64,000 bases of DNA from Brachyspira murdochii DSM 12563. Its GTDB lineage: Bacteria; Spirochaetota; Brachyspiria; Brachyspirales; Brachyspiraceae. Shown here one piece after another: positions 4,887 through 43,200 of this stretch (positions within the stretch are counted from its first letter, which is position 1; each line of letters begins with the position of its first letter). The position numbers were made by a program, and so were the translations under genes. Under the pieces are notes generated by a model. That model was not told where the DNA came from and did no database searches. It worked only from the letters and a program-made list of their open reading frames with translations. The DNA lies in contig NC_014150.1 of NCBI RefSeq assembly GCF_000092845.1, positions 2,169,510-2,233,509 on the forward strand, read 5' to 3'.

Positions 4887-5606
4887 TTATGCTTTAGGTC
4901 CAAATTTAAATCCTAACTGTAATCCTATGTCAAAAGTACCTCCGTCAAGAAAAGGACCACTTACACTTCCGTCAGTGGCAACTTTAGGCATGAAATCATA
5001 ACCTAAATATAAACCTACATTCATAGCTATTTTATCAGTAAAGAATATAGAATAATCGAAAGTACCCTTTATATATCCTATTAATGCTGTAGAATACATA
5101 GTACCTATATAATTCATATTTAATTTAAGACTTCCAGCATCAGTATCTCCATATTTAACATTAATAGATGAAGCCATAGGGATTTTTACTCCTCCGCCTA
5201 TACCTATTGCAAATGCTCCAATATTTACTTTAGGGAGCAATCCTATTTGTATGCTTTCAAAAGATTGGGATAAAGTCATTTTAGGTGCTCCTGTCATACC
5301 TGTTGCAGCCTCACCATCCATAGAGAAAGCAAAAGTGTCATGTGCATATCCTATTTCTCCTAATATGCTAATACCTAAACCATCAGTTATACTAATCATA
5401 TAACCTAATTGAGCAGTAACTCCAATATCAAAGCCAACTCCTCCTTTAATAACATTTTTTGGTGTTCCTGCAGGTAATTTAGGAATACCTATGCTTAATC
5501 CAAATGGTACATTGAGTATAAACTCGAATCCGCTTGCTGCGAATGCTGATGTACTTAATGCTGCTGATAATACAGCTGTGAAAATGATTTTTTTTAAGTG
5601 TTTCAT
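4887..5606 (-). CDS. Outer-membrane beta-barrel surface protein (Brachyspira-type)
   Basis: The 239-residue protein has a signal peptide (MKHLKKIIFTAVLSAALSTS, cleavage likely after AFA) followed by alternating Gly/aromatic beta-strand sequence (GFDIGVTAQLGYMI, GISILGEIGYAHDTF) ending in GLQLGFKFGPKA. This is the pattern of a small outer-membrane barrel and resembles Brachyspira variable surface proteins. A strong Shine-Dalgarno (AAAAGGAG) sits before the ATG, and a terminator follows. An inverted repeat and a 7-bp tandem repeat lie upstream. The exact role (porin or surface antigen) is unknown. Confidence 0.8.
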   Translation of the reverse strand: MKHLKKIIFTAVLSAALSTSAFAASGFEFILNVPFGLSIGIPKLPAGTPKNVIKGGVGFDIGVTAQLGYMISITDGLGISILGEIGYAHDTFAFSMDGEAATGMTGAPKMTLSQSFESIQIGLLPKVNIGAFAIGIGGGVKIPMASSINVKYGDTDAGSLKLNMNYIGTMYSTALIGYIKGTFDYSIFFTDKIAMNVGLYLGYDFMPKVATDGSVSGPFLDGGTFDIGLQLGFKFGPKA

Positions 5607-5662: not shown

Positions 5663-5830
5663 CAAGTTATCAAAGATATAAAATGTATTTTGAATATAAA
5701 TTAAAAAGGTATTAATTAGATTTTTCGATTTATTAATTTTTTTTATTTGTGCAATGCGAAAAGAAATATGATGTATTATTAAGTTGTATAGATTGTATAG
5801 TGATTTTTTTGATAATTTTAGTGAATAGTT

Positions 5831-5877
5831 ATGCTGTATGCTGTATGCTGTATGCTGTATGCTGTATGCTGTATGCT
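5831..5877. repeat. Heptanucleotide tandem repeat (ATGCTGT)6
   Basis: Six perfect copies of ATGCTGT occupy 5831-5872, with a partial seventh to 5877. The tract lies between the divergent surface-protein gene (start 5606) and the secreted-protein gene (start 6186). Such tracts gain and lose copies by slipped-strand mispairing, and 7 is not a multiple of 3. A T12 run at 5968-5979 is a second possible unstable tract in the same gap. Confidence 0.95.
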
Positions 5878-9889: not shown

Positions 9890-11143
9890 TTATTTTATTA
9901 ATCCAATATCTTTTCTGTAGTATTTATCTTTAAAATCTATTTTTTCAATATCTTCATAAGTAAGTTTTCTGGCCTCTTCTAAAGTGTCAGCAATATTAAC
10001 TACATTAAGAACACGTCCTCCGTCAGTAACAATATTATTATTTTCATCTATTTTAGCACCTGCAATAAAGCACTTACCTTTTATATTTTCAATACCTTCT
10101 ATTTTGTATCCTTTGTTATAACTAGCAGGATATCCGCCTGATGCCATTACAACACAGCATGCATGCTTATTTTTCCATTTGATATTTAAACTTGATATGT
10201 CTTTTTTCATAGCAGATTCTATAATAGATAAATAGTCAGTATCTAAAAGCTGAAGCACTGCCTGAGTTTCAGGATCTCCCATTCTCACATTGTACTCAAG
10301 CAAATACACACCTTTTTTTGTTATCATAATCCCAAAAAATATAATTCCGGCAAATGACATTTTTTCAGCCTTTATTCCTTTAAGTGTAGGCTCTAATATA
10401 TCTTTTATAAATAATTCTTCTGCTTCTTTTGTATAGTACGGATTCGGTGCTATAACTCCCATTCCTCCGGTATTGTTTCCAGTATCATTATCACCTATCT
10501 TTTTATGATCTTTAGCAGATATAAAAGGTATTATAACATTGCTGTCAGTTACTGAAAGTATAGAAGCTTCATAACCCTCTAAAAACTCTTCTATTACTAT
10601 TTCATCGCCTGCTTCTTTAAATATTTTTTTAATCATTATATCTTCTAAAGCATTTTGAGCCTCTTTTTTATCTTGACATATTAAAACACCTTTACCTAAA
10701 GCAAGTCCGCTCGCCTTTATAACTATAGGATAGCTGCATTTATTTAAATATTCACTTGCTTTATTATAATCAGTAAATGTTTCATATTCTGCAGTTTTAA
10801 CTCCATACTTTTTCATAAAATTTTTTGAATATGCTTTAGAGCCTTCAAGTATGGCAGCATGTTTATTAGGTCCGAATATTTTAAGTCCGTTTTCTTCAAA
10901 CTTATCAGCTATTCCATATACAAGCATTTCTTCGCTTCCTACAATAGTTAAATCAATATTTTCATTTTTAGCAAAGTTTAATATTTCATCTATAGTAGAA
11001 ATGTTTACATTTTTACATTTTTTTTCTCTATGAGTTCCAGCATTTCCTAAAGCACAATATATTTTTGATACTCTTTCATTTTTACTCAAATTATTGCAAA
11101 TGGCATGCTCTCTGGCACCTGAACCTATAACAAGTATTTTCAT
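9890..11143 (-). CDS. purD: Phosphoribosylamine-glycine ligase
   Basis: The 417-residue ATP-grasp enzyme begins MKILVIGSGAREHAI, the PurD N-terminal signature, and contains PIVIKASGLALGKGVLIC (ATP-grasp), GGMGVIAP and VRMGDPETQAVLQLL near the metal site. It joins glycine to 5-phosphoribosylamine in the second step of purine synthesis. Length is typical for the family. AAAGGAT lies upstream of the ATG. No other pur gene is adjacent, so it appears to be a single-gene transcript ended by the hairpin at 9833-9880. Confidence 0.97.
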   Translation of the reverse strand: MKILVIGSGAREHAICNNLSKNERVSKIYCALGNAGTHREKKCKNVNISTIDEILNFAKNENIDLTIVGSEEMLVYGIADKFEENGLKIFGPNKHAAILEGSKAYSKNFMKKYGVKTAEYETFTDYNKASEYLNKCSYPIVIKASGLALGKGVLICQDKKEAQNALEDIMIKKIFKEAGDEIVIEEFLEGYEASILSVTDSNVIIPFISAKDHKKIGDNDTGNNTGGMGVIAPNPYYTKEAEELFIKDILEPTLKGIKAEKMSFAGIIFFGIMITKKGVYLLEYNVRMGDPETQAVLQLLDTDYLSIIESAMKKDISSLNIKWKNKHACCVVMASGGYPASYNKGYKIEGIENIKGKCFIAGAKIDENNNIVTDGGRVLNVVNIADTLEEARKLTYEDIEKIDFKDKYYRKDIGLIK

Positions 11144-11465: not shown

Positions 11466-11494
11466 TTGAAAAATGGGGATAATTTTACTATACT
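11466..11494 (+). promoter_or_regulatory. Predicted sigma-70-type promoter of the sialidase operon
   Basis: TTGAAA (11466-11471) and TATACT (11489-11494) are separated by 17 bp. A start of transcription near 11501 would leave a leader of about 290 nt containing a palindrome, a small ORF and two pentanucleotide tracts. A second promoter nearer the gene cannot be excluded. Confidence 0.5.
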
Positions 11495-11504
11495 TATGAT
11501 ATAG

Positions 11505-11528
11505 GTTAATGTTCACGTGAACATTAAC
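11505..11528. promoter_or_regulatory. Perfect 24-bp palindromic operator candidate
   Basis: The half-site GTTAATGTTCAC is followed directly by its exact reverse complement, giving a 24-bp palindrome centred on CACGTG. It starts about ten bases after the predicted -10 box, overlapping or just past the start of transcription, a classic repressor position. ATGTTCAC/GTGAACAT resembles operators of LacI- or GntR-type sugar regulators; that assignment is inference. Confidence 0.65.
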
Positions 11529-11551
11529 TAGCAAACTAATATGAGGATAAT

Positions 11552-11623
11552 ATGATCAGTAACTTTATTTTCACTAATTGTACTCGAGTTCAGTTCAGTT
11601 CAGTTCAGTTCAGTTATATGTAG
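11552..11623 (+). other. Small leader ORF running through the AGTTC tract
   Basis: An ATG at 11552 is preceded by GAGGA at a good distance. It opens a 23-codon frame that runs through the AGTTC repeats and stops at TAG 11621-11623. If the AGTTC tract gained one copy (or lost two), the frame would pass through the TTCTA tract and stay open to a TGA at 11796-11798, overlapping the sialidase ATG (11795-11797) as ATGA. With one copy fewer it would stop at 11674-11676. It could be a phase-variable leader coupling translation to the sialidase; chance is not excluded. Confidence 0.4.
11587..11615. repeat. Pentanucleotide tandem repeat (AGTTC), 5.8 copies
   Basis: Five perfect AGTTC copies at 11587-11611 are followed by a partial AGTT. 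The tract lies in the predicted leader of the sialidase operon and inside the small ORF starting at 11552. Copy changes would shift that frame because 5 is not a multiple of 3. Confidence 0.95.
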
Positions 11624-11625
11624 AA

Positions 11626-11670
11626 TTCTATTCTATTCTATTCTATTCTATTCTATTCTATTCTATTCTA
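11626..11670. repeat. Pentanucleotide tandem repeat (TTCTA)9
   Basis: Nine perfect TTCTA copies occupy 11626-11670, ten bases after the AGTTC tract and 124 bp before the sialidase start codon. The repeat contains no stop codon in any forward frame, so it can be read through in all frames. Confidence 0.95.
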
Positions 11671-11794
11671 GAATAATAGAAAATAAAATACTTTTTACAT
11701 CTTATATCATTTCTAAACTTTTTTCAAGACCATTCTGCATTTACCAGTTAAATGCTTATTATAAAAATACAATATTTATAGAGGAGTTTATATC

Positions 11795-13213
11795 ATGAAA
11801 AAAAATTTAATTATCTCTTTTGTATTGATATGTGCATTTGTATTTGCAATATCTTGTAATAATAAAAACGTTACAGGAGCAGGCGGAGGTAATACTGGAG
11901 GTTCAGGCGGAGGCAGTACTGTTGGAAGCGGTTATGTACTCCCTGCTGGTTCTTTAAGTCAGGAAGAACAAAATCAACCTATGGATCCGAATAATAACTA
12001 TACTACATTGTGGACAGCTGGTCAAGGAGCAACTGGATATAGAATACCTGCTTTGGCAGTAACAAGAAATGGAGTGATAGTTGCAGCAGCAGATAGAAGA
12101 CATAATGGTTATCAAGATTTAGGTAAACAAAATGTTATAGATGTTGTTGTAAGAACAAGTAAGGATTTGGGTAAAACTTGGTCAGAAAGCAAAGTTGTAG
12201 TACAAGCAAATAATATAACAGATTCTTATGGCGATGCTTTTTTAATGGTTGATCCTGTAGCTAAAAGCACTATATATATGGGAGTTGTAACAGAACCAGG
12301 TATACAGAAAAAAGATATAAATCAAACAGGAATCACTAAAATATTTAGAAGTACTGATGATGGTGCTACTTGGTCTTTATGGTCTACCTTAGATGCAAAT
12401 AGTGTAATATTTAAAGGGGGAAAAGCTAAACCTTCTACAGGATTTGGGGCTTCTGGTCAGGGTGTAACATTAAGATATGGGCAACATAAAGGAAAAATAA
12501 TGTTTGCATTCTTCGGTTGGGGAGCAAATAGTAGTGGTTCTTCACCTTTAACAGTTTCAGCAATAGTCAGTTCAGACGGTAAAACTTGGGAAAATCTAGG
12601 CTATTTAAATTCAAGTACAGGTGGGGGTGATGGTAATATTGATGAAACTAAAGCAATAGAGCTTTCTGATGGAAGAATACTTTTCAATCATAGAAGATCT
12701 GTTAGTGCTGGTGGAAGATCTTGGTCTATATCTTCGGATGGTGGTGCAAGTTGGCAATGGTTAGGTAAAGATCCAGAATTAGTAGATCCAGGTAATAATG
12801 CAGATATATTCAGATACGAATATAATGGCAAACGTATAAAAACTGACAAATACATATTGTATATACACTCAGATCAAGCCCCTAATGGTACATGGTATCA
12901 AAATAGAATAAATCACCATGTTAAACTTTCTGTAAATGAGCTTAATAATGGTGCTGCTAATACATCTGGAAAATTCCAATATGACAGACAACTAATAAAT
13001 GATGGTATGAACACATATTCAGGATATCCTACTATAACTGTATTGCCTGATGGTACTATAGCTACTTTAACTGAAGAACTTCCAAAATCTCAGAGTAAAG
13101 GTACAGATCATTATAATATAGTATTTAGAAGATTTAACTTAAATTGGTTAACTTCAGGTGCTGAATCTGTTAACTATAGTACTGACTATTTATTTCAAGA
13201 AGCTATGAATTAA
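11795..13213 (+). CDS. Exo-alpha-sialidase lipoprotein (GH33-type)
   Basis: The 472-residue protein has a lipoprotein signal (AISC, Cys21) and a Gly/Ser linker at about 28-46, then a sialidase beta-propeller. It carries YRIP (82-85, first triad Arg at 83), the catalytic-acid region AADRRHNG (Asp100), and four Asp-boxes at about 122-129, 186-193, 259-265 and 313-320. Arg300 and Arg371 are likely triad partners, and Tyr408 in TYSGYP is the likely nucleophile. It would release terminal sialic acid from host mucin at the cell surface. A GAGGAG site precedes the ATG; the leader has two pentanucleotide tracts and a palindrome. The next gene encodes an outer-membrane barrel 18 bp downstream. Confidence 0.9.
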   Translation: MKKNLIISFVLICAFVFAISCNNKNVTGAGGGNTGGSGGGSTVGSGYVLPAGSLSQEEQNQPMDPNNNYTTLWTAGQGATGYRIPALAVTRNGVIVAAADRRHNGYQDLGKQNVIDVVVRTSKDLGKTWSESKVVVQANNITDSYGDAFLMVDPVAKSTIYMGVVTEPGIQKKDINQTGITKIFRSTDDGATWSLWSTLDANSVIFKGGKAKPSTGFGASGQGVTLRYGQHKGKIMFAFFGWGANSSGSSPLTVSAIVSSDGKTWENLGYLNSSTGGGDGNIDETKAIELSDGRILFNHRRSVSAGGRSWSISSDGGASWQWLGKDPELVDPGNNADIFRYEYNGKRIKTDKYILYIHSDQAPNGTWYQNRINHHVKLSVNELNNGAANTSGKFQYDRQLINDGMNTYSGYPTITVLPDGTIATLTEELPKSQSKGTDHYNIVFRRFNLNWLTSGAESVNYSTDYLFQEAMN

Positions 13214-13231: not shown

Positions 13232-14452
13232 ATGAGAAAATATATATTAAATACAATATTATGTACATGTTTAGTATTTAGTTCTGTTTACGGTTATTTT
13301 GGTGCTGATATGAACTTTATTGACTTCTTGGTTCATAGTAATCAATTGAGCGTTAGAACTGATAGATTTGGTATTCTAGCGGGTACAAGTAATGTAAGAG
13401 TAGCTGTTGGTATAACAGGTGCAAATAGCTTATCCGATTTAATAATACATAATATAGGTGATATAGGAGGAACAAATGGTGTTATAAGTTTAGTTCCTTC
13501 TGTTTTGGCTGGTATAGGTTATGATGCAGGTTTTTGGGGGATAGGGGCAGGTTATGAATTTACTTATAAATCTGATTCATATATGGTTCATACTCCTGTA
13601 ATAACTGCTACTGTTTTAGATGATGCTCTTAGAATAAATGTACCTGTTTCTATAGGTGTAGGTTCTAAAAGTAAAACAACTGTTGCCGATCTTACAGGTG
13701 CTTATGTAGTATCAACTGCTATTGAAGCAAGATATTATTTCCCTAGAGAAATGCCTGTATTAAGTCAATTAAGATTTTTTGTAAACTATGGGAATGCATA
13801 TATTGAAAATGTTGCAGATAATCAGCAGTATTTAAGACAGCAGTCTTTTGGTTTGCAAGCTAGAATATACTTCAAAATAGAAACTCCTGAAGTATTAATA
13901 GAACCTATTTTAAGAGTTCAGTATGATCAATCATTAGCTACAGATAATAAAAACTTTGGAGCAAATATAATAAATGATAATTTCTCTATTTCTGCTAAAG
14001 GTTTTGCCCCTTATTATCCTACAACAGGACCTGGAAGTTCTACCGGCGGTAATGGTGCCAATACTGGTTCTGGATTAAATGGAGGATATTTAGCTTCTAT
14101 TCCTGGATCATATTATGCAATAGAACCTTATAGAGTTGGTGTTGCTGTACCTGTTGGTTTTACTGCTACTTCATTAGATGAAAATATTAGTTTTTATCTT
14201 GAACCTGCTTTATCATTTACAATGATAGGAGCTAAGCATATTTACCAGAGTTCTGCTTCACAAAATGAAAGGAATTCCATATTTGGATTAGGATATGTAG
14301 TTTATGGAGAATTATATATACGTCCTGTAAAAAGTTTGGAATGGTACTTTGAAATTCAAACTGGTGGTGTAACTATAGCTGATAGTTTAAAAAATCCTAG
14401 TCAAACTAGTTTAGTATTCAATGGTAAAACTGGTTTGAGTTATTATTTTTAA
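13232..14452 (+). CDS. Outer-membrane beta-barrel protein co-transcribed with the sialidase
   Basis: The 406-residue protein has a signal peptide (cleavage near VYG) and long stretches of alternating beta-strand sequence rich in Gly, Tyr and Phe (GIGYDAGFWGIGAGYEFTYK). It ends in an aromatic strand, GLSYYF, typical of barrels folded by the BAM machinery. A Gly/Ser/Thr-rich loop lies at about 270-290. AGAGGAAA precedes the ATG, 18 bp after the sialidase, and a strong terminator follows, so the two form one operon. A role in handling sialidase products or displaying the enzyme is possible; the sequence does not show it. Confidence 0.8.
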   Translation: MRKYILNTILCTCLVFSSVYGYFGADMNFIDFLVHSNQLSVRTDRFGILAGTSNVRVAVGITGANSLSDLIIHNIGDIGGTNGVISLVPSVLAGIGYDAGFWGIGAGYEFTYKSDSYMVHTPVITATVLDDALRINVPVSIGVGSKSKTTVADLTGAYVVSTAIEARYYFPREMPVLSQLRFFVNYGNAYIENVADNQQYLRQQSFGLQARIYFKIETPEVLIEPILRVQYDQSLATDNKNFGANIINDNFSISAKGFAPYYPTTGPGSSTGGNGANTGSGLNGGYLASIPGSYYAIEPYRVGVAVPVGFTATSLDENISFYLEPALSFTMIGAKHIYQSSASQNERNSIFGLGYVVYGELYIRPVKSLEWYFEIQTGGVTIADSLKNPSQTSLVFNGKTGLSYYF

Positions 14453-20984: not shown

Positions 20985-23900
20985 TTAGTTAGATGAAAGT
21001 CCTATAAAGAATGATTTTAATCCTCCTTTATCATTTTCTACCGGAACAAATATCATATGAGATATATCTTCTCTGTCAGAAGCATCAAATTTATTTTTTA
21101 GAGAATCAGAAGAAAACGGGTCTGATACATATAAAGTTTTTTTATGCGATAAAATCTTTTTAAATAAAGCCTCATTCTCATTTATATTTAATTTATCTTT
21201 TGTAGCATCAGATATATTCTGAGATTCATCTATACTGTAGCTGCCGTCATTTTTTTTTGTAAGCATAGCTGCATGTTTTATATCAAGACCAGACTGCTCT
21301 TTTATCCAATTAAGCATGTCATGCATATTTTTATTGATAAATTTTTTACCCCTGATTGATTTTAATACATTTTTCCATCCGGCTGTCATGTTCTCTTTTA
21401 CTTTTTCTTCTGCCTCTCTGTAATAATCATCAGGTATTTTAGGTACCTCTTCAGGGTCATATAAATCTTTATCTGTAAGGTCGTCTGTATCAAATGTGTC
21501 TTTTTCACTTGCAGGTTTTACTACTTCTCCATCATCATATTCTTCTCTGAAATTAGGTGATAAATTAGAGTTATGATTATCGCTGTTTTCTTCATCATCA
21601 TAATCTCCAAGAAGAAAATCTCTGTTAAGAGAGAAGTTAAAAGCATCGCTTGAAGAAAAATACTCTTCTTCTTTTTTTACTATTTCATCTTCTAAAATAG
21701 AACCATGACTTATCAAAATGTCCCCCTCGTTATTATCATCTATAATATCATCAATGCCTTTTATTATATCCTCATTTTTATTATTGTCTATATTACTATT
21801 ATCAATTGTCTCTTCTAGTTTATCATCATCTTCTTTTATACTATCTGAATTTTCTTCATTATATGAATCAGGTATATCGTCCATATTTTCAATCGTATCA
21901 TCTATATTATCATCATCATTATTATCTTCACTTTTATTTTCTAGCTCATCATTCAAATTAGGTATGTCGTCTAGATTTTCTATAGTATCATCTATATTAT
22001 TATCATCATCGTTATTGTCTTTGCCTTTATTTTCTAGCTCATCATTCAAATTAGGTATGTCGTCTAGGTTTTCTATAGTATCATCTATATTATTATCATC
22101 ATCATCGTTATTGTCTTCGCCTTTATTTTCTAGCTCATCATTCAAATTAGGTATGTCATATAAGTTTTCTATAGTATCATCTATATTACTATCATTATTA
22201 GCAGTATCTAAATTATTTGCTTCATCATCATCTGCAATATTATCAGCATCAAGAAGTTCATCATCAGTATACTCTTTCATCTCTGGCATACTTTCATCTT
22301 TATTTTCTTCTTCTTTGTTATCTTCTTCATCGTTTATAATGTCGTCCAAGTTAGGTACATCTTCATCATCATCTACAATATTATCAGCATCAAGGAGTTC
22401 ATCATCAGTATACTCTTTCATTTCCGGCATACTTTCATCTTTATTTTCTTCTTCTTTGTTATCTTCTTCATCGTTTATAATGTCGTCCAAGTTAGGTACA
22501 TCTTCATCATCATCTACAATATTATCAGCATCAAGAAGTTCATCGTCAGTATACTCTTTCATCTCGGGCATACTTTCATCTTTATTTTCTTCTTCTTTGT
22601 TATCTTCTTCATCGTTTATAATGTCGTCCAAGTTAGGTACATCTTCATCATCTTCTATGATATTATCAGCATCAAGAAGTTCATCGTCAGTATACTCTTT
22701 CATCTCGGGCATACTTTCATCTTTATTATCTTCTTCTTTGTTATCTTCTTCATCGTTTATAATGTCGTCCAAGTTAGGTACATCTTCATCATCATCTACA
22801 ATATTATCAGCATCAAGGAGTTCATCATCAGTATACTCTTTCATTTCCGGCATACTTTCATCTTTATTTTCTTCTTCTTTGTTATCTTCTTCATCGTTTA
22901 TAATGTCGTCCAAGTTAGGTACATCTTCATCATCTTCTATGATATTATCAGCGTCAAGAAGTTCATCGTCAGTATACTCTTTCATTTCCGGCATACTTTC
23001 ATCTTTATTTTCTTCTTCTTTGTTATCTTCTTCATCGTTTATAATGTCGTCCAAGTTAGGTACATCTTCATCATCTTCTATGATATTATCAGCATCAAGA
23101 AGTTCATCGTCAGTATACTCTTTCATCTCGGGCATACTTTCATCTTTATTCTCTTCTTCTTTGTTATCTTCTTCATCGTTTATAATGTCGTCCAAGTTAG
23201 GTACTTCGTAATCATCTTCTATGATATTATCAGCGTCAAGAAGTTCATCGTCAGTATACTCTTTCATTTCCGGCATACTTTCATCTTTATTTTCTTCTTC
23301 TTTGTTATCCTCTTCATCATTTATAATATCGTCCAAGTTAGGTACTTCGTCATCATCTTCTATGATATTATCAGCATCAAGAAGTTCATCGTCAGTATAC
23401 TCTTTCATTTCCGGCATACTTTCATCTTTATTATCTTCTTCTATGTTTTCTTCTTCATCGTTTATAATATCGTCCAAGTTAGGTACATCTTCATCATCTT
23501 CTATGATATTATCAGCATCAAGAAGTTCATCGTCAGTATACTCTTTCATTTCCGGCATACTTTCATCTTTATTATCTTCTTCTATGTTATCTTCTTCATC
23601 ATTTATAATATCGTCCAAGTTAGGTACTTCATCAAAATCTTCATCATTTACTATGCTGTCTAAGGAAGATAAATCGCCTATTTTTATACTCTCATCTTCT
23701 TTTTTATCCTCTTCAAGTACATCATCTAAAGAAGATAAATCTCCTAATTTTAGACTTTCATCATTATCATCATTATTATCCTCTTCATCATCTTTTACAG
23801 TCTCGCCTCCGTCTTCAAGTACATCATCTAAAGAGGATAAATCGCCTATTTTTATACTGTCATCATCTTCTTCATTATCTTTTTTTATTTCAATTTCTTC

Positions 23901-34217: not shown

Positions 34218-37200
34218 GTGGAAAAAGAGTTCGCTAGTATTTTTGAGGATAATAAAGACATCTCACTCAATGAGTATGATATTAATAAACTTATAGAAAG
34301 AACTATAAAAATTAAAGAGAATGAATTTCCTATAATATCTATAGGAAATACTGATAAAGACAGCCCAAAAATACAAGGTGTAGTAACTTCTAAAGAATAT
34401 AATAAAGATATACTCGAATTTAACAACGTTCATGCAAAAGCAAATAGTGATAAATCAGATTCTTTAAATAGTGCATACACAGATGAAGAAAATAAACAAT
34501 ATAAAAATTTAGAAGAAAGTTTAAGTTTATCTGAAAATGATTTAGAATCTGCAGGTAATATTATAGATTCTGAATTAGATATGTCTTCGCTTTTCCAAAA
34601 TGCATTAAATAATACCGAAGCAAATGATGATAAAAAAGATAATGATAATAATAAAGAAGAAGATTTATTAAATGAACAAAATTATGTAGTTGATAATATA
34701 TATTCTAGAGAAGAAAACGATATTCATAAAAGTGCTGAAAAAGAAGCATTAACGGAAGATGAATTGAATACTCTTGAAACAGTTGAAGATTTTAATTTAG
34801 AAGATTCTTTTGAAAAAAATGAAAATCCTTTAGATGAAGAAGAAGAATTTGAAGATACATCTGATATTTCAAATATAGGAATGAAAGAATATACTGATGA
34901 AGAACTTCTTGATATAAATAATATATTAGATGATGAGGAGTTTTCTTCTAATGAGACATTATCAGAAAACTCTATTGAAAATCCTTTAGAAGAAACTTTA
35001 TCAATAGAAGAAGACCAACCAGAAGAAAGTACGGATAGTACCTCAGATAATGAAGAAACATCAGACCTAGAGATGAAAGAATACAGTGATGAAGAGCTTT
35101 TGGATTCTAGTAATATCTTGGAAGAAGCTGCTGCAATTTCAGAAGAAACATCATCAATAGAAGAAGAACAATCAGAAGAAAGTACGGATAGTACCTCAGA
35201 TAATGAAGAAACATCAGATATAGAGATGAAAGAATACAGTGATGAAGAGCTTTTGGATTCTAGTAATATCTTAGAAGAAGCTGCTGCAATTTCAGAAGAA
35301 ACTTCTTCAATAGAAGAAGAACAATCAGAAGAAAGTACGGATAATACCTCAGATAATGAAGAAACATCAGACCTAGAGATGAAAGAATACAGTGATGAAG
35401 AGCTTTTGGATTCTAGTAATATCTTGGAAGAAGCTGCTGCAATTTCAGAAGAAACTTCATCAATAGAAGAAGAACAATCAGAAGAAAGTACGGATAATAC
35501 CTCAGATAATGAAGAAACATCAGACCTAGAGATGAAAGAATACAGTGATGAAGAGCTTTTGGATTCTAGTAATATCTTAGAAGAAGCTGCTGCAATTTCA
35601 GAAGAAACATCATCAAAAGAAGAAGAACAATCAGAAGAAAGTACGGATAGTACCTCAGATAATGAAGAAACATCAGACCTAGAGATGAAAGAATACAGTG
35701 ATGAAGAGCTTTTGGATTCTAGTAATATCTTGGAAGAAGCTGCTGCTGCAATTTCAGAAGAAACATCATCAAAAGAAGAAGAACAATCAGAAGAAAGTAC
35801 GGATAGTACCTCAGATAATGAAGAAACATCAGACCTAGAGATGAAAGAATACAGTGATGAAGAGCTTTTGGATTCTAGTAATATCTTAGAAGAAGCTGCT
35901 GCAATTTCAGAAGAAACATCATCAAAAGAAGAAGAACAATCAGAAGAAAGTACGGATAATACCTCAGATAATGAAGAAACATCAGACCTAGAGATGAAAG
36001 AATACAGTGATGAAGAGCTTTTGGATTCTAGTAATATCTTGGAAGAAGCTGCTGCAATTTCAGAAGAAACATCATCAAAAGAAGAAGAACAATCAGAAGA
36101 AAGTACTGATAGTACCTCAGATAATGAAGAAACATCAGACCTAGAGATGAAAGAATACAGTGATGAAGAGCTTTTGGATTCTAGTAATATCTTGGAAGAA
36201 GAAGCTGCAATTTTAGAAGAAACATCATCAAAAGAAGAAGAACAATCAGAAGAAAGTACGGATAATACCTCAGATAATGAAGAAACATCAGACCTAGAGA
36301 TGAAAGAATACAGTGATGAAGAGCTTTTGGATTCTAGTAATATCTTAGAAGAAGCTGCTGCAATTTCAGAAGAAACATCATCAAAAGAAGAAGAACAATC
36401 AGAAGAAAGTACGGATAATACTTTAGATAATGAAGAAACATCAGACATAGAGATGAAAGAATACAGTGATGAAGAGCTTTTGGATTCTAGTAATATCTTG
36501 GAAGAAGAAGCTGCAATTTTAGAAGAAACATCATCAATAGAAGAAGAACAATCAGAAGAAAGTACGGATAATACCTCAGATAATGAAGAAACATCAGACC
36601 TAGAGATGAAAGAATACAGTGATGAAGAGCTTTTGGATTCTAGTAATATCTTGGAAGAAGAAGCTGCAATTTTAGAAGAAACATCATCAATAGAAGAAGA
36701 ACAACCAGAAGAAAGTACGGATAGTACCTCAGATAATGAAGAAACATCAGACCTAGAGATGAAAGAATACAGTGATGAAGAGCTTTTGGATTCTAGTAAT
36801 ATCTTGGAAGAAGAAACTCCAATTTCAGAAGGAACATCATCAATAGAAGAAGAACAATCAGAAGAAAGTACGGATAATACCTCAGATAATGAAGAAACAT
36901 CAGATATAGAGATGAAAGAATACAGTGATGAAGAGCTTTTGGATTCTAGTAATATTTTGGAAGAAGAAACTACAATTTCAGAAGGAACATCATCAATAGA
37001 AGAAGACCAACCAGAAGAAAGTACGGATAATACCTCAGATAATGAAGAAACATCAGATATAGAGATGAAAGAATACAGTGATGAAGAGCTTTTGGATTCT
37101 AGTAATATTTTGGAAGAAGAAACTACAATTTCAGAAGGAACATCATCAAAAGAAGAAGAACAACCAGAAGAAAGTACGGATAATACCTCAGATAATGAAG

Positions 37201-40200
37201 AAACATCAGACCTAGAGATGAAAGAATACAGTGATGAAGAGCTTTTGGATTCTAGTAATATCTTGGAAGAAGAAGCTAAATATATTAAAGAATTATCTGG
37301 TGAAGAAGTTTTAGATGATAATTTAGAAGAATTAGGAAACATAGAAGAAAGTTTATCATTAGAAGATTTGGAAAATATCGAAGAGGGTTTGGAAGAGCTT
37401 GAGCATATAGAAGAAGATATATCAGAATCTGTAGCTTCAGAGGAAGAAAGTTTGTCATTAGATAAATATATGCTTATAGATTCAGAAGACGGAACTAAAA
37501 TAAAAAGAACTTCTTATGCTAAAGATAATATAGATTTAGAAAATGCTGTATTTTCAGATGAGCAAAATTATGTTGTAAAGCATATATATTCTGAGGAGCA
37601 AGATGAACTTATAAAAGAAGTATCAGAAAAAGACAGTGTAACAGAGGAAGAATTAGAGGAATTAGATTTTGTAGAAGAATTTGATTTAAATAACTTTTTT
37701 GCTAATAAAAGTACAGATAGCAGTAATATATCTGAAGATGATATAGAAGTTCCTGATTTAGATGATGATACATTTATACCTGTAAATGATGAAGATTTAG
37801 CAATGTCTGATGAAGAATTAGATCTGCCTGATATAGAAGATGAAGAACCTAGAGATGCTGATTTATTAAAAGAAGACAATCTAAAAGAAGATGAAAAAGT
37901 CATAGAATATGATAAATATAATAATAGAGATGTTGTAGTACCTGATATAGATAATGTTGATTATATAGATGAATCTAACTATATTAATGAAGCAGATAAC
38001 ACTGAAGATGATGTTATACAGTTATCTGGAAATGAACTTGATTTAATAACTAAAGATTTTGATATTAATGAAAAAATAGATAATGATAATATTTCTGATA
38101 AAAATGATGCGGAATCTTCAGATGAAGAGCTTGAAGAAATTGATGATGGTTATATAAATACCAATGAGGAAGACATAACTGATGATTACAGAGAAAATAA
38201 TTATACATTATCAGAAATGTCGGATGAAGAGCTTGAAGAAATTGATGATGGTTATATAAATACCAATGAAGAAGACATAACTGATGATTATAGAGAAAAT
38301 AATTATACATTATCAGAAATGTCGGATGAAGAGCTTGAAGAAATTGATGATGGTTATATAAATACCAATGAAGAAGACATAACTGATGATTACAGAGAAA
38401 ATAATTATACATTATCAGAAATGTCGGATGAAGAGCTTGAAGAAATTGATGATGGTTATATAAATACCAATGAGGAAGACATAACTGATGATTATAGAGA
38501 AAATAATTATACATTATCAGAAATGTCGGATGAAGAGCTTGAAGAAATTGATGATGGTTATATAAATACTAATGAAGAAGACATAACTGATGATTATAGA
38601 GAAAATAATTATACATTATCAGAAATGTCGGATGAAGAGCTTGAAGAAATTGATGATAATTATGAATATGATTTAAAAAAAGAAGAATTATTATCTGACG
38701 AAATAAAAGAAGCATCTTCATCAGATATAGAAGATACTTCTATGTTATCAGAAAATATTGCAGAAAATGAAAGTAATTCATCATCAGAAGAAGATTTATC
38801 CGAAGAAAACGTATATATTTCAGATACATCAAAAGAACCAGAAGAGGCATCATTAGAAGAATTAAGTGAGCAAGCAGAAGGAGTTTCAGATAGTTCAGAA
38901 GAACCTTTAGAATTAAAAGAAGAATTACCAGAAGAAAAAAACGTAGAAGAAACTTCAGAACCAACTAATGATTATATAAAAAGAATGCATGAAGAGTATT
39001 TGAATAATCATCATACAGAAGATAACATTCCCTATAATGATGATTATATAAGTAAATTCAAAAACCTTCATGAAGAATATATAAAAGAAAATGTAAAGAA
39101 AGAGGAAGAAACTTCTGAGGTATCAGAAGATATTTCAAATCAATCTGAAGATTTGGAAGAAAGTAAAGAAGATATATTATCAGAAGAGATAACTGAACAA
39201 ACAGATGAAATTGAGAAATCATCTCCAGAACCAACTAATGATTATATAAAAAGAATGCATGAAGAGTATTTGAATAATCATCGTACAGAAGATAATATTC
39301 CCTCTAATGATGATTATATAAGTAAATTCAAAAATCTTCATGAAGAATATATAAAAGAAAATGTAAAGAAAGAGGAAGAAACTCCTGAAGTATCAGAAGA
39401 TATTTCAAATCAATCTGAGGATTTGGAAGAAAGTAAAGAAGATATATTATCAGAAGAGATAACTGAACAAACAGATGAAATTGAGAAATCATTTCCAGAA
39501 CCAACTAATGATTATATAAAAAGAATGCATGAAGAGTATTTGAATAATCATCGTACAGAAGATAACATTCCCTATAATGATGATTATATAAGTAAATTCA
39601 AAAACCTTCATGAAGAATATATAAAAGAAAATGTAAAGAAAGAGGAAGAAACTTCTGAGGTATCAGAAGATATTGAAGAAGAAATAGAAGATATTTCAAA
39701 TCAATCTGAGGATTTGGAAGAAAGTAAAGAAGATATATTATCAGAAGAGATAACTGAACAAACAGATGAAATTGAGAAATCATCTCCAGAACCAACTAAT
39801 GATTATATAAAAAGAATGCATGAAGAGTATTTGAATAATCATCGTACAGAAGATAACATTCCCTATAATGATGATTATATAAGTAAATTCAAAAACCTTC
39901 ATGAAGAATATATAAAAGAAAATGTAAAGAAAGAGGAAGAAACTCCTGAAGTATCAGAAGATATTTCAAATCAATCTGAAGATTTGGAAGAAAATAAAGA
40001 ATATCCTTTGCCAGAGGATACAAACGAACAAATTGAAGAATTGGCAGAAGAAGAAATAATTAATAATGAAGAAGATTTGACAGAAGAAGAAAAATCAATG
40101 TATCACAGCTATTTGAATGGTGATCAATCTTCTAATGATGATGTATCAGAAGAAGTAGAAACATCAGAGGTACCTACTACAGATTATAATGAAGAATCAG

Positions 40201-43200
40201 AAAAGATAGAGGAAGAAGCAAATCAAGAAGAGACAGTACCAGAAGAATTAATCGAACAAACAGAAGAAGTTTCAGAGAGTACAGAAGAGCCTTCCGATAT
40301 AAAAGAAGAATTGGCAGAAGAAGAAATAATTAATAATGAAGAAGATTTGACAGATGAAGATAAAGCTATGATAGAAGGCTATTTAGATAAAGTAGACAAT
40401 TATGCCGAAGAAGATTTAACAGAAGAAGAAAAATTAATGTATCACAGCTATTTGAATAGTGAACAATCTTCTAATGATGATGTATCAGAAGAAGTAGAAA
40501 CATCAGAGGCACCTACTACAGATTATAATGAAGAATCAGAAAAGATAGAGGAAGAAGCAAATCAAGAAGAGACAGTACCAGAAGAATTAATCGAACAAAC
40601 AGAAGAAGTTTCAGAGAGTACAGAAGAGCCTTCCGATATAAAAGAAGAATTGGCAGAAGAAGAAATAATTAATAATGAAGAAGATTTGACAGATGAAGAT
40701 AAAGCTATGATAGAAGGCTGTTTAGATAAAGTAGACAATTATGCCGAAGAAGATTTAACAGAAGAAGAAAAATTAATGTATCACAGCTATTTGAATAGTG
40801 AACAATCTTCTAATGATGATGTATCAGAAGAAGTAGAAACATCAGAAGAGCCAAATATTGATAATGTAGAGTTAGAGAAAGCAGATGAAGAAGAAAACAA
40901 AGAAGAATTTTCATCAGATGAATTAACAGAACAAACAGAAGAAGTTTCAGAGAGTACAGAAGAGCCTTCCGATATAAAAGAAGAATTGGCAGAAGAAGAG
41001 ATAATTAATAATGAAGAAGATTTGACAGACGAAGATAAAGCTATGATAGAAGGCTATTTAGATAAGGTAGACAATCATGCCGAAGAAGATTTAACAGAAG
41101 AAGAAAAATCAATGTATCACAGCTATTTGAATGGTGATCAATCTTCTAATGATGATGTATCAGAAGAAGTAGAAACATCAGAAGAGTCAAATATTGATAA
41201 TGTAGAATTAGATAAAGCAGAGGAAGAAGCAAATCAAGAAGAGAGAGTACCAGAAGAATTAATCGAACAAACAGAAGAAGTTTCAGAGAGTACAGAAGAG
41301 CCTTCCGATATAAAAGAAGAATTGGCAGAAGAAGAGATAATTAATAATGAAGAAGATTTGACAGACGAAGATAAAGCTATGATAGAAGGCTATTTAGATA
41401 AGGTAGACAATCATGCCGAAGAAGATTTAACAGAAGAAGAAAAATCAATGTATCACAGCTATTTGAATGGTGATCAGTCTTCTAATGATGATGTATCAGA
41501 AGAAGTAGAAACATCAGAGGCACCTACTACAGATTATAATGAAGAATTAGAAAAGATAGAGGAAGAAGCAAATCAAGAAGAGACAGTACCAGAAGAATTA
41601 ATCGAACAAATAGAAGAAGTTTCAGAGAGTACAGAAGAGCCTTCCGAATTAAAAGAAGAATTAGAATCAGAAGAAGAAATAATTAATAATGAAGAAGATT
41701 TGACAGACGAAGATAAAGCTATGATAGAAGGCTATTTAGATAAGGTAGACAATCATGCCGAAGAAGATTTAACAGAAGAAGAAAAATCAATGTATCACAG
41801 CTATTTGAATGGTGATCAGTCTTCTAATGATGATGTATCAGAAGAAGTAGAAACATCAGAGGCACCTACTACAGATTATAATGAAGAATTAGAAAAGATA
41901 GAGGAAGAAGCAAATCAAGAAGAGACAGTACCAGAAGAATTAATCGAACAAATAGAAGAAGTTTCAGAGAGTACAGAAGAGCCTTCCGATATAAAAGAAG
42001 AATTGGCAGAAGAAGAAATAATTAATAATGAAGAAGATTTGACAGACGAAGATAAGGCTATGATAGAAGGCTATTTAGATAAGGTAGACAATCATGCCGA
42101 AGAAGATTTAACAGAAGAAGAAAAATCAATGTATCACAGCTATTTGAATAGTGATCAATCTTCTAATGATGATGTATCAGAAGAAGTAGAAACATCAGAG
42201 GCACCTACTACAGATTATAATGAAGAATTAGAAAAGATAGAGGAAGAAGCAAATCAAGAAGAGACAGTACCAGAAGAATTAATCGAACAAATAGAAGAAG
42301 TTTCAGAGAGTACAGAAGAGCCTTCCGAATTAAAAGAAGAATTAGAATCAGAAGAAGAAATAATTAATAATGAAGAAGATTTGACAGACGAAGATAAAGC
42401 TATGATAGAAGGCTATTTAGATAAGGTAGACAATCATGCCGAAGAAGATTTAACAGAAGAAGAAAAATCAATGTATCACAGCTATTTGAATGGTGATCAG
42501 TCTTCTAATGATGATGCAGGAGAAGAAACAGAAATAACAGAAGAAGCTGATGTGGGAAATGATGAAGTACAAGAAGAAATTAAAGAAAATGATAAAAAAG
42601 ATGATTTAAAAGACGATGATATACTTAAAACAAAAGAAGATAATATAGTAGATGAAGACCTTGAAAATATATTATCTGACAATAATGTTCAAATAGATGA
42701 AATAAGAGATTCTGATTTAAATATGTTAGAAAATATTATAAAAGGTAAGGAAGAGGAAGACGGAGAAGAACTTATACGTATAAATAATAAAACAATTGAA
42801 AGTAATATTCAGCAAGAAGAAACTAAAGTTAAGTCTGTAGAAAATTTTGATTCTATGGAAGAGCTTTTAAATAAGGAGACAAATATGTCTGAAGAAAAAG
42901 AATTACAAACTATAGAAAAAGATAATGTAGACAGCAGTGTTGCAGTTGAAGATGAGTTTAAATTGGGTGATGATAACGGACCTATATTAATTGAAGAAGA
43001 ACATAAGCCTTCCAATAGCAGTGATGATGACGATTTTGACGGAGAGATAACACAGTCCGATTTGGATTATGCTATTAAATTGTTTGAATCAGAAGAGACA
43101 AACGGAAGCAATAATGAATATAGTTCTAAACAGGATATTTTATTATCAGAAAATGAAATTAATAAATTTAAAAAGCTATTTGGTTATTTCAAAAATATTG

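Follow-up and report, generated by a model that had tools for sequence, protein, structure and literature searches.

Slippage in repeat tracts is a familiar route to phase variation in Haemophilus, Neisseria, Campylobacter and Helicobacter. By analogy of layout, the nearest known mechanism to the switch proposed here is lex2A-lex2B of Haemophilus influenzae, in which a short frame is said to lie ahead of a transferase gene. Its tract has been described together with the copy numbers that are ON and OFF (PMC2651432, PMC6479036). In both systems the repeats sit within a short upstream frame, and their phase governs, or here would govern, a downstream gene that modifies the surface. The lex2A-lex2B tract consists of tetranucleotides at a single locus, whereas the Brachyspira locus has pentanucleotides in two tracts in series. 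Brachyspira also differs in its probable ligand-responsive operator, its non-conserved leader peptide and the many loci of this kind that it appears to hold across the genus.

Other systems share part of this arrangement. The nadA gene of Neisseria meningitidis likewise combines a tract with ligand control of a surface gene, exerted by a ligand-responsive repressor; in nadA, however, the tract alters the spacing of promoter elements (PMC2791445), whereas our tract is transcribed as part of the leader, downstream of the candidate operator, and shifts the frame. Slippage of a non-triplet tract also shifts the frame in the Haemophilus contingency genes mod and hmg, but there the tract is within the gene and the protein is truncated, while in Brachyspira the protein is untouched and access to its start would change (PMC2651432). 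In Escherichia coli iraD, as may be the case here, translation of a short upstream frame governs a downstream start; unlike our locus, it is under CsrA control, without repeats or phase switching (PMC5574718). Neither Brachyspira nor translational coupling features in a recent review of phase variation (PMC11868660), and our searches of an open-access library turned up no report of phase variation through repeats in this genus. The sialidase switch is apparently a variant of repeat-mediated phase variation that is seemingly undescribed and used across the genus.

Reading frames of the sialidase leader

The window, a stretch of 64,000 nucleotides, comes from Brachyspira murdochii DSM 12563; the published genome of B. 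murdochii 56-150T has 3,241,804 bases (PMC3163572). Between purD and a sialidase gene, the order of elements is promoter, palindrome, GAGGA, ATG, AGTTC tract, TAG, ATTCT tract, stem-loop, GAGGAG and ATGA. The features are as follows.

9890-11143, minus strand: purD, on the 5′ flank of the sialidase leader region
11466-11494, plus strand: sigma-70-type promoter TTGAAA-17-TATACT (10 of 12 matches), upstream of both tracts
11505-11528, no strand assigned: perfect 24-bp palindrome GTTAATGTTCACGTGAACATTAAC, read from the sequence, directly past the -10 box; core at 11510-11523
11543-11547, plus strand: GAGGA, leader-frame ribosome-binding site, read from the sequence
11552-11623, plus strand: leader ORF as sequenced, 23 codons and TAG, the presumed OFF phase (sequence and frame arithmetic)
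11552-11798, plus strand: extent of the leader frame in the presumed ON phase, with a frame change at the tract (frame arithmetic)
11579-11592, no strand assigned: degenerate second copy of the candidate operator core, TGTACTCGAGTTCA, inside the leader frame, read from the sequence
11587-11615, plus strand: first tract, AGTTC x5.8 (repeat detection)
11625-11670, plus strand: second tract, ATTCT (TTCTA) x9.2 (repeat detection)
11737-11755, plus strand: small stem-loop GCATTTA-ccagt-TAAATGC ahead of the sialidase ribosome site (leader alignment, folding)
11781-11786, plus strand: GAGGAG, sialidase ribosome-binding site, read from the sequence
11795-13213, plus strand: lipoprotein sialidase, 472 aa, PF13088, with a lipobox-type N-terminus
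13232-14452, plus strand: Vsp-family outer-membrane protein gene, PF05540 (E 2.8e-52)

The sialidase, which starts at ATGA (11795-11798), matches solved bacterial sialidases down to E 9e-28. Only 18 bases separate it from the Vsp-family gene, with which it is probably co-transcribed, and the gene pair is also present at four other loci (L058, L059, L060 and L061). A block of purD, sialidase, Vsp, prenyl synthase and MptE-like genes is kept in genomes G018 and G024, and in G021 from the sialidase onward.

A sequence-only reading of this DNA had described a leader ORF interrupted by repeats, starting at 11552, stopping at 11621 and followed through the AGTTC and TTCTA tracts to an ATGA; these coordinates are exact and can be read directly from the sequence. 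Both tracts are perfect tandem repeats of a non-triplet unit, such that a change of one unit shifts the leader frame, which is the layout of a contingency locus. With a start codon served by a ribosome site, and with a frame extending as far as the next gene's start, the leader also has the layout of lex2A-type coupling. As that reading had proposed, our script found that one more AGTTC unit, or two fewer, moves the leader stop to TGA 11796-11798 when the ATTCT number is as sequenced; this stop, at +1 relative to the sialidase ATG, overlaps it. With the sequenced number of AGTTC units the leader always stops at TAG 11621-11623, and in the remaining AGTTC phases it ends at 11669 or 11674. Changes in the second tract switch the outcome as well, again as proposed: of the nine phase combinations of the two tracts, two reach the sialidase.

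The same reading had judged an accidentally open frame uncommon but possible. When the DNA past the tracts is shuffled with its dinucleotides kept, 1.6% of trials have a frame without stops as far as the gene start; among equally distant upstream regions taken from this genome the figure is ~10%. Taken alone, the open frame is suggestive. What makes the evidence strong is that one frame stays open in every homologous leader, although their repeats differ, and that the same layout is seen again at other loci.

Other Brachyspira sialidases are 36-54% identical to the one in the window. Their leaders align with it from the -10 box through the stem-loop and keep the promoter, the ATG and the position of the tract, with a different repeat unit. 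The -10 region TACTATACT is conserved among them, and GAGG ahead of the leader ATG is kept in L003, L004, L019 and L027. Long-frame stops, given relative to the gene start, are as follows.

L003 (G018): AGTTC x8; stop at +1
L004 (G021 paralogue): ACTAC, x6-7 across three paralogues; stop at -15; ON as sequenced
L019 and L027 (G021 paralogues): ACTAC, x6-7 across the same three; stop at +17 in each
L076 (B. catarrhinii): TTTCA tract at a contig end; stop at +10
L078 (uncultured Spirochaetia, more distant): poly-C tract at a contig end; stop at +1
G024 leader: no tract; leader frame simply open to -24

In each repeat-bearing leader (the window, L003, L004, L019, L027, L076 and L078), a single frame, and no more than one, runs without stops to the gene start; the closed frames stop earlier, mostly just past the tract. 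The shuffle chance of an open frame is 1-9% per homologous locus. We looked for stop codons in the extended frame of the relatives, the finding that the sequence-only reading had said would count against it, and there were none in any relative. As sequenced, one of the three G021 paralogues is ON and two are OFF. Repeat unit and copy number differ among relatives, with one genome compared per species, and among paralogues of one genome.

Differences between homologous leaders are spread evenly over codon positions, without bias; thus, it is the open frame, not the peptide, that has been preserved. We therefore rejected a conserved leader peptide. Another candidate, NCSRE[HQ] as a peptide motif, was also dropped: the sialidase leaders of G018, G021 and G024 contain a further copy of the palindrome within the leader frame, and this operator copy encodes NCSRE[HQ] or similar. 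The absence of codon-position bias also counted against an attenuator or arrest-peptide leader, as did the lack of any terminator-like site scored in the sialidase leader and of any match to an Rfam family there. For the stem-loop at 11737-11755, both-sided changes occur at two of five pairs, which is weak covariation support; as a genome-wide element it was rejected, since its pattern is present once in the genome.

Promoter and candidate operator

A transcript start downstream of both tracts, which the sequence-only reading had recognized as fatal to it, is argued against by the conserved upstream promoter and by the absence of any plus-strand promoter-like site scored between the tracts and the sialidase. 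What had gone unremarked is the palindrome in this promoter, which from its sequence and position is a probable operator; in the mRNA it is predicted to fold as a 5′ hairpin as well. Its core, TGTTCNCGNGAACA, is found at two places in the genome, compared to ~0.05 expected. The second is at a gene for an SSS-family symporter, in the same position relative to the -10 box, and this gene is followed by one for a cyclically permuted mutarotase of the NanM kind. The pattern is present in 17 of 26 Brachyspira genomes, and the symporter site is conserved in most of those 17.

The symporter and NanM-like mutarotase pair looks like a sialic-acid uptake operon. The same palindrome stands at the promoters of this putative operon and of the sialidase, as in a sialic-acid regulon, and the natural reading of the gene identities is that it is a probable sialic-acid operator. 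Our search for the regulator of the palindrome did not find one, and the palindrome is absent at the nanA-like gene L216 (G000:C1:2448252-2449109), which is followed by a YhcH-type gene. At the position equivalent to the degenerate second core copy, 11579-11592, intact copies are found in L002, L003, L004, L019 and L027. Sialidase expression would respond both to a probable sialic-acid signal and to a random switch. At another sialidase-like gene, L021 (G017:C34), TA x14 lies ~70 bases upstream of the -10 region, possibly a promoter-type switch.

Repeat-gated leaders at other loci

In samples of the same genome, it is common for tracts whose unit is 4, 5 or 7 bases long to come after a leader ATG and 90-270 bases ahead of a gene, and for a single frame to stay open as far as the start of that gene. 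We counted as hits instances in which the long frame stops within -30 to +60 of the gene start and the next gene is at least 90 bases away; the 90-base limit was introduced after inspection of the data because shorter distances were uninformative in the controls. Own-genome instances include the following.

L102: lipoprotein; long-frame stop at +1
L094: 575-aa protein; long-frame stop at +5
L179: arylsulfotransferase-like lipoprotein; stop at -28, a hit in the third own-genome sample

Six of 11 own-genome instances were hits, compared to 1.2 expected from matched positions (P = 2e-4), a value that is not a test since the idea came from that sample. With the criterion unchanged, 10 of 15 tracts were hits in a 400-kb test sample of another Brachyspira species (G001), while 2.2 were expected (P = 3e-6); among the misses, two run in frame into the gene. 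For the third own-genome sample, which has few leader tracts, a signature was fixed beforehand (two frames closed within 30 nt and the third open for at least 80 nt). It was present in two of five instances versus ~15% in controls, which is not significant. Tracts were scarce in samples of G009 and G004, where frames ended at -18 to -67. For instances in which the following gene was 90 nt or more away, the end points were -43 to -67, beyond the limits of the hit criterion.

Across loci, long-frame stops lie anywhere between -68 and +149, and there are also in-frame fusions to the gene, although most long frames end 30 nt or less from the gene start rather than deep inside the gene. ATGA (+1) is the commonest single end point, at 14 of 39 loci, too few for a strict ATGA geometry to be the rule, and the spread of stops and the in-frame fusions mean that strict ATGA reinitiation cannot be general. 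The interpretation put forward in the sequence-only reading is supported in its core, but the ATGA overlap on which it was built, while the commonest geometry, is not the conserved feature. Judged from the leader sequences, what recurs from locus to locus is that one frame stays open as far as the start region.

In G011, the CTCACAG copy number runs from 4 to 11 among the near-identical leaders of six paralogous lipoprotein genes; therefore, such tracts change length. The switch, first put forward for the sialidase alone, belongs to a wider set in which this locus is one of many of its kind. We lean toward the view that Brachyspira has a genus-wide, undescribed layer of control, in which tens of surface and polysaccharide genes lie behind repeat-gated leader frames. 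All that is conserved in these frames would be a phase in which ribosomes arrive at the gene start; the downstream protein would be unaltered at most loci, and the switch would be stacked on ordinary regulation, here the candidate sialic-acid operator. If true, this would explain how variation in surface lipoproteins, Vsp partners and glycans could arise in these gut spirochaetes. A gene with an intact coding sequence could be silent, a state missed by annotation, and the repeat-gated loci provide a ready list for scoring from sequencing reads.

The window contains a second repeat-gated leader, on the minus strand.

5830-5877, minus strand: AGCATAC x6.9, directly after an ATG with GGAG
4887-5606, minus strand: downstream gene for a 239-aa exported protein, no Pfam match

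Its long frame is open for 197 nt and stops 26 nt before the gene. Read on the plus strand, as a TATGCTG tract at 5830, it has no long frame toward 6186; that assignment was rejected, and the tract belongs to the minus strand. Relatives of the exported protein are found in all 26 Brachyspira genomes, and some carry other tracts at the equivalent place.

L189: CAACG, stop at +1
L192: a heptamer, stop at +1
L212: ACAGT, in frame
Other relatives: no tract

Upstream of 5606 (minus strand) and in the relatives L186-L192, a stem-loop is followed by an invariant TTATAAATAAAA directly before the ribosome site. Both-sided changes occur at 4 of 11 pairs of this stem-loop, which is possibly a 5′ stabilizer.

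Proposed coupling between leader and sialidase

On strong comparative evidence from its sequence and that of its relatives, the sialidase locus is quite probably a contingency switch, acting by way of a reading frame in the leader to which the sialidase would be coupled. Transcription would start near 11501, with the operator palindrome at the promoter common to the putative sialic-acid uptake operon. Ribosomes would initiate at ATG 11552 and translate both tracts, first AGTTC and then ATTCT. One phase would take them on to the sialidase start, where they would terminate at the TGA overlapping its ATG, and either termination and reinitiation or ribosome cover of the leader would raise expression of the sialidase and possibly also of the Vsp-family gene. 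In the other phases ribosomes would stop 121-174 nt upstream, and the sialidase would be less expressed. Switching between phases would occur through slipped-strand changes in unit number, which we infer for this B. murdochii strain. Since the sialidase has a good ribosome site of its own, GAGGAG, it may also be translated without coupling. Occlusion of its start by leader RNA structure, which would make coupling necessary, was rejected, as opening energies were not above those of shuffled controls in any of nine leaders.

As the downstream ribosome site is good and no more hidden than in shuffled controls, and the ends of the long frames are scattered across loci, ribosome cover against Rho or nucleases is a serious alternative to reinitiation. 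In its full form, the short phases would expose an untranslated, AU-rich leader to Rho or ribonucleases, passing ribosomes would protect the transcript and the overlap of stop and start would be incidental. The in-frame fusions fit this explanation, as do the closed frames, which stop soon past the tract and leave 100-200 nt untranslated; however, reinitiation is available at the 14 loci with ATGA, and the leader has no scored terminator-like site. We regard such phase-dependent polarity as possible, though on the unlikely side. That the switch has the reverse sign, the long frame hindering initiation as it passes over the sialidase start and the short phases expressing the gene, is improbable: although the gene has its own ribosome site and the long frame reaches well inside the gene at some loci (+17, +34 and +149), the nearness of most ends to the start speaks against it, as does the tract-less G024 leader, whose frame is simply open. 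Initiation in bacteria is, moreover, usually helped when the preceding frame stops at the next start or close to it.

The tracts could instead act in the DNA, through the spacing between copies of the promoter or operator and something downstream, with the open frames due to chance. Spacing that depends on a tract is known for nadA (PMC2791445), and at the sialidase the second palindrome copy adjoins the tract; yet open frames far exceed matched controls at many loci without such operators, and the spacing of the operator copies is unchanged by the tract because it lies downstream of both. We consider this explanation very improbable. Still less credence goes to pure accident, an AT-rich leader with neutral repeats and a frame that happens to be open: although ~10% of ordinary upstream regions at equal distance have such a frame, one frame is open in all homologous leaders despite their differing repeats, and the G001 sample departs strongly from expectation.

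Several other repeats were noticed. Pentanucleotides at the 3′ ends of polysaccharide-type genes (L094:11735-11810, L094:14242-14281 and the tracts of L136 and L167) have a phase that decides if the frame of the upstream gene extends to the next gene start. Heptanucleotide tracts of 19 and 24 copies (L124:17855-17986 and L170:17894-18062) have no long frame toward the next gene; that of L124 lies directly past a promoter, and both are possibly another kind of switch. In L024, L086 and L091, the leader ATG is only ~8-12 bases past the -10 box, and such a short gap may mean that these frames are translated from leaderless mRNA. Within the window, near-identical repeats of 93-339 bp form long arrays at 21866-23642 and 34988-42541 (units of 141, 153, 102, 270 and 339 bp), which apparently encode acidic repeat proteins and are likely variable in copy number.
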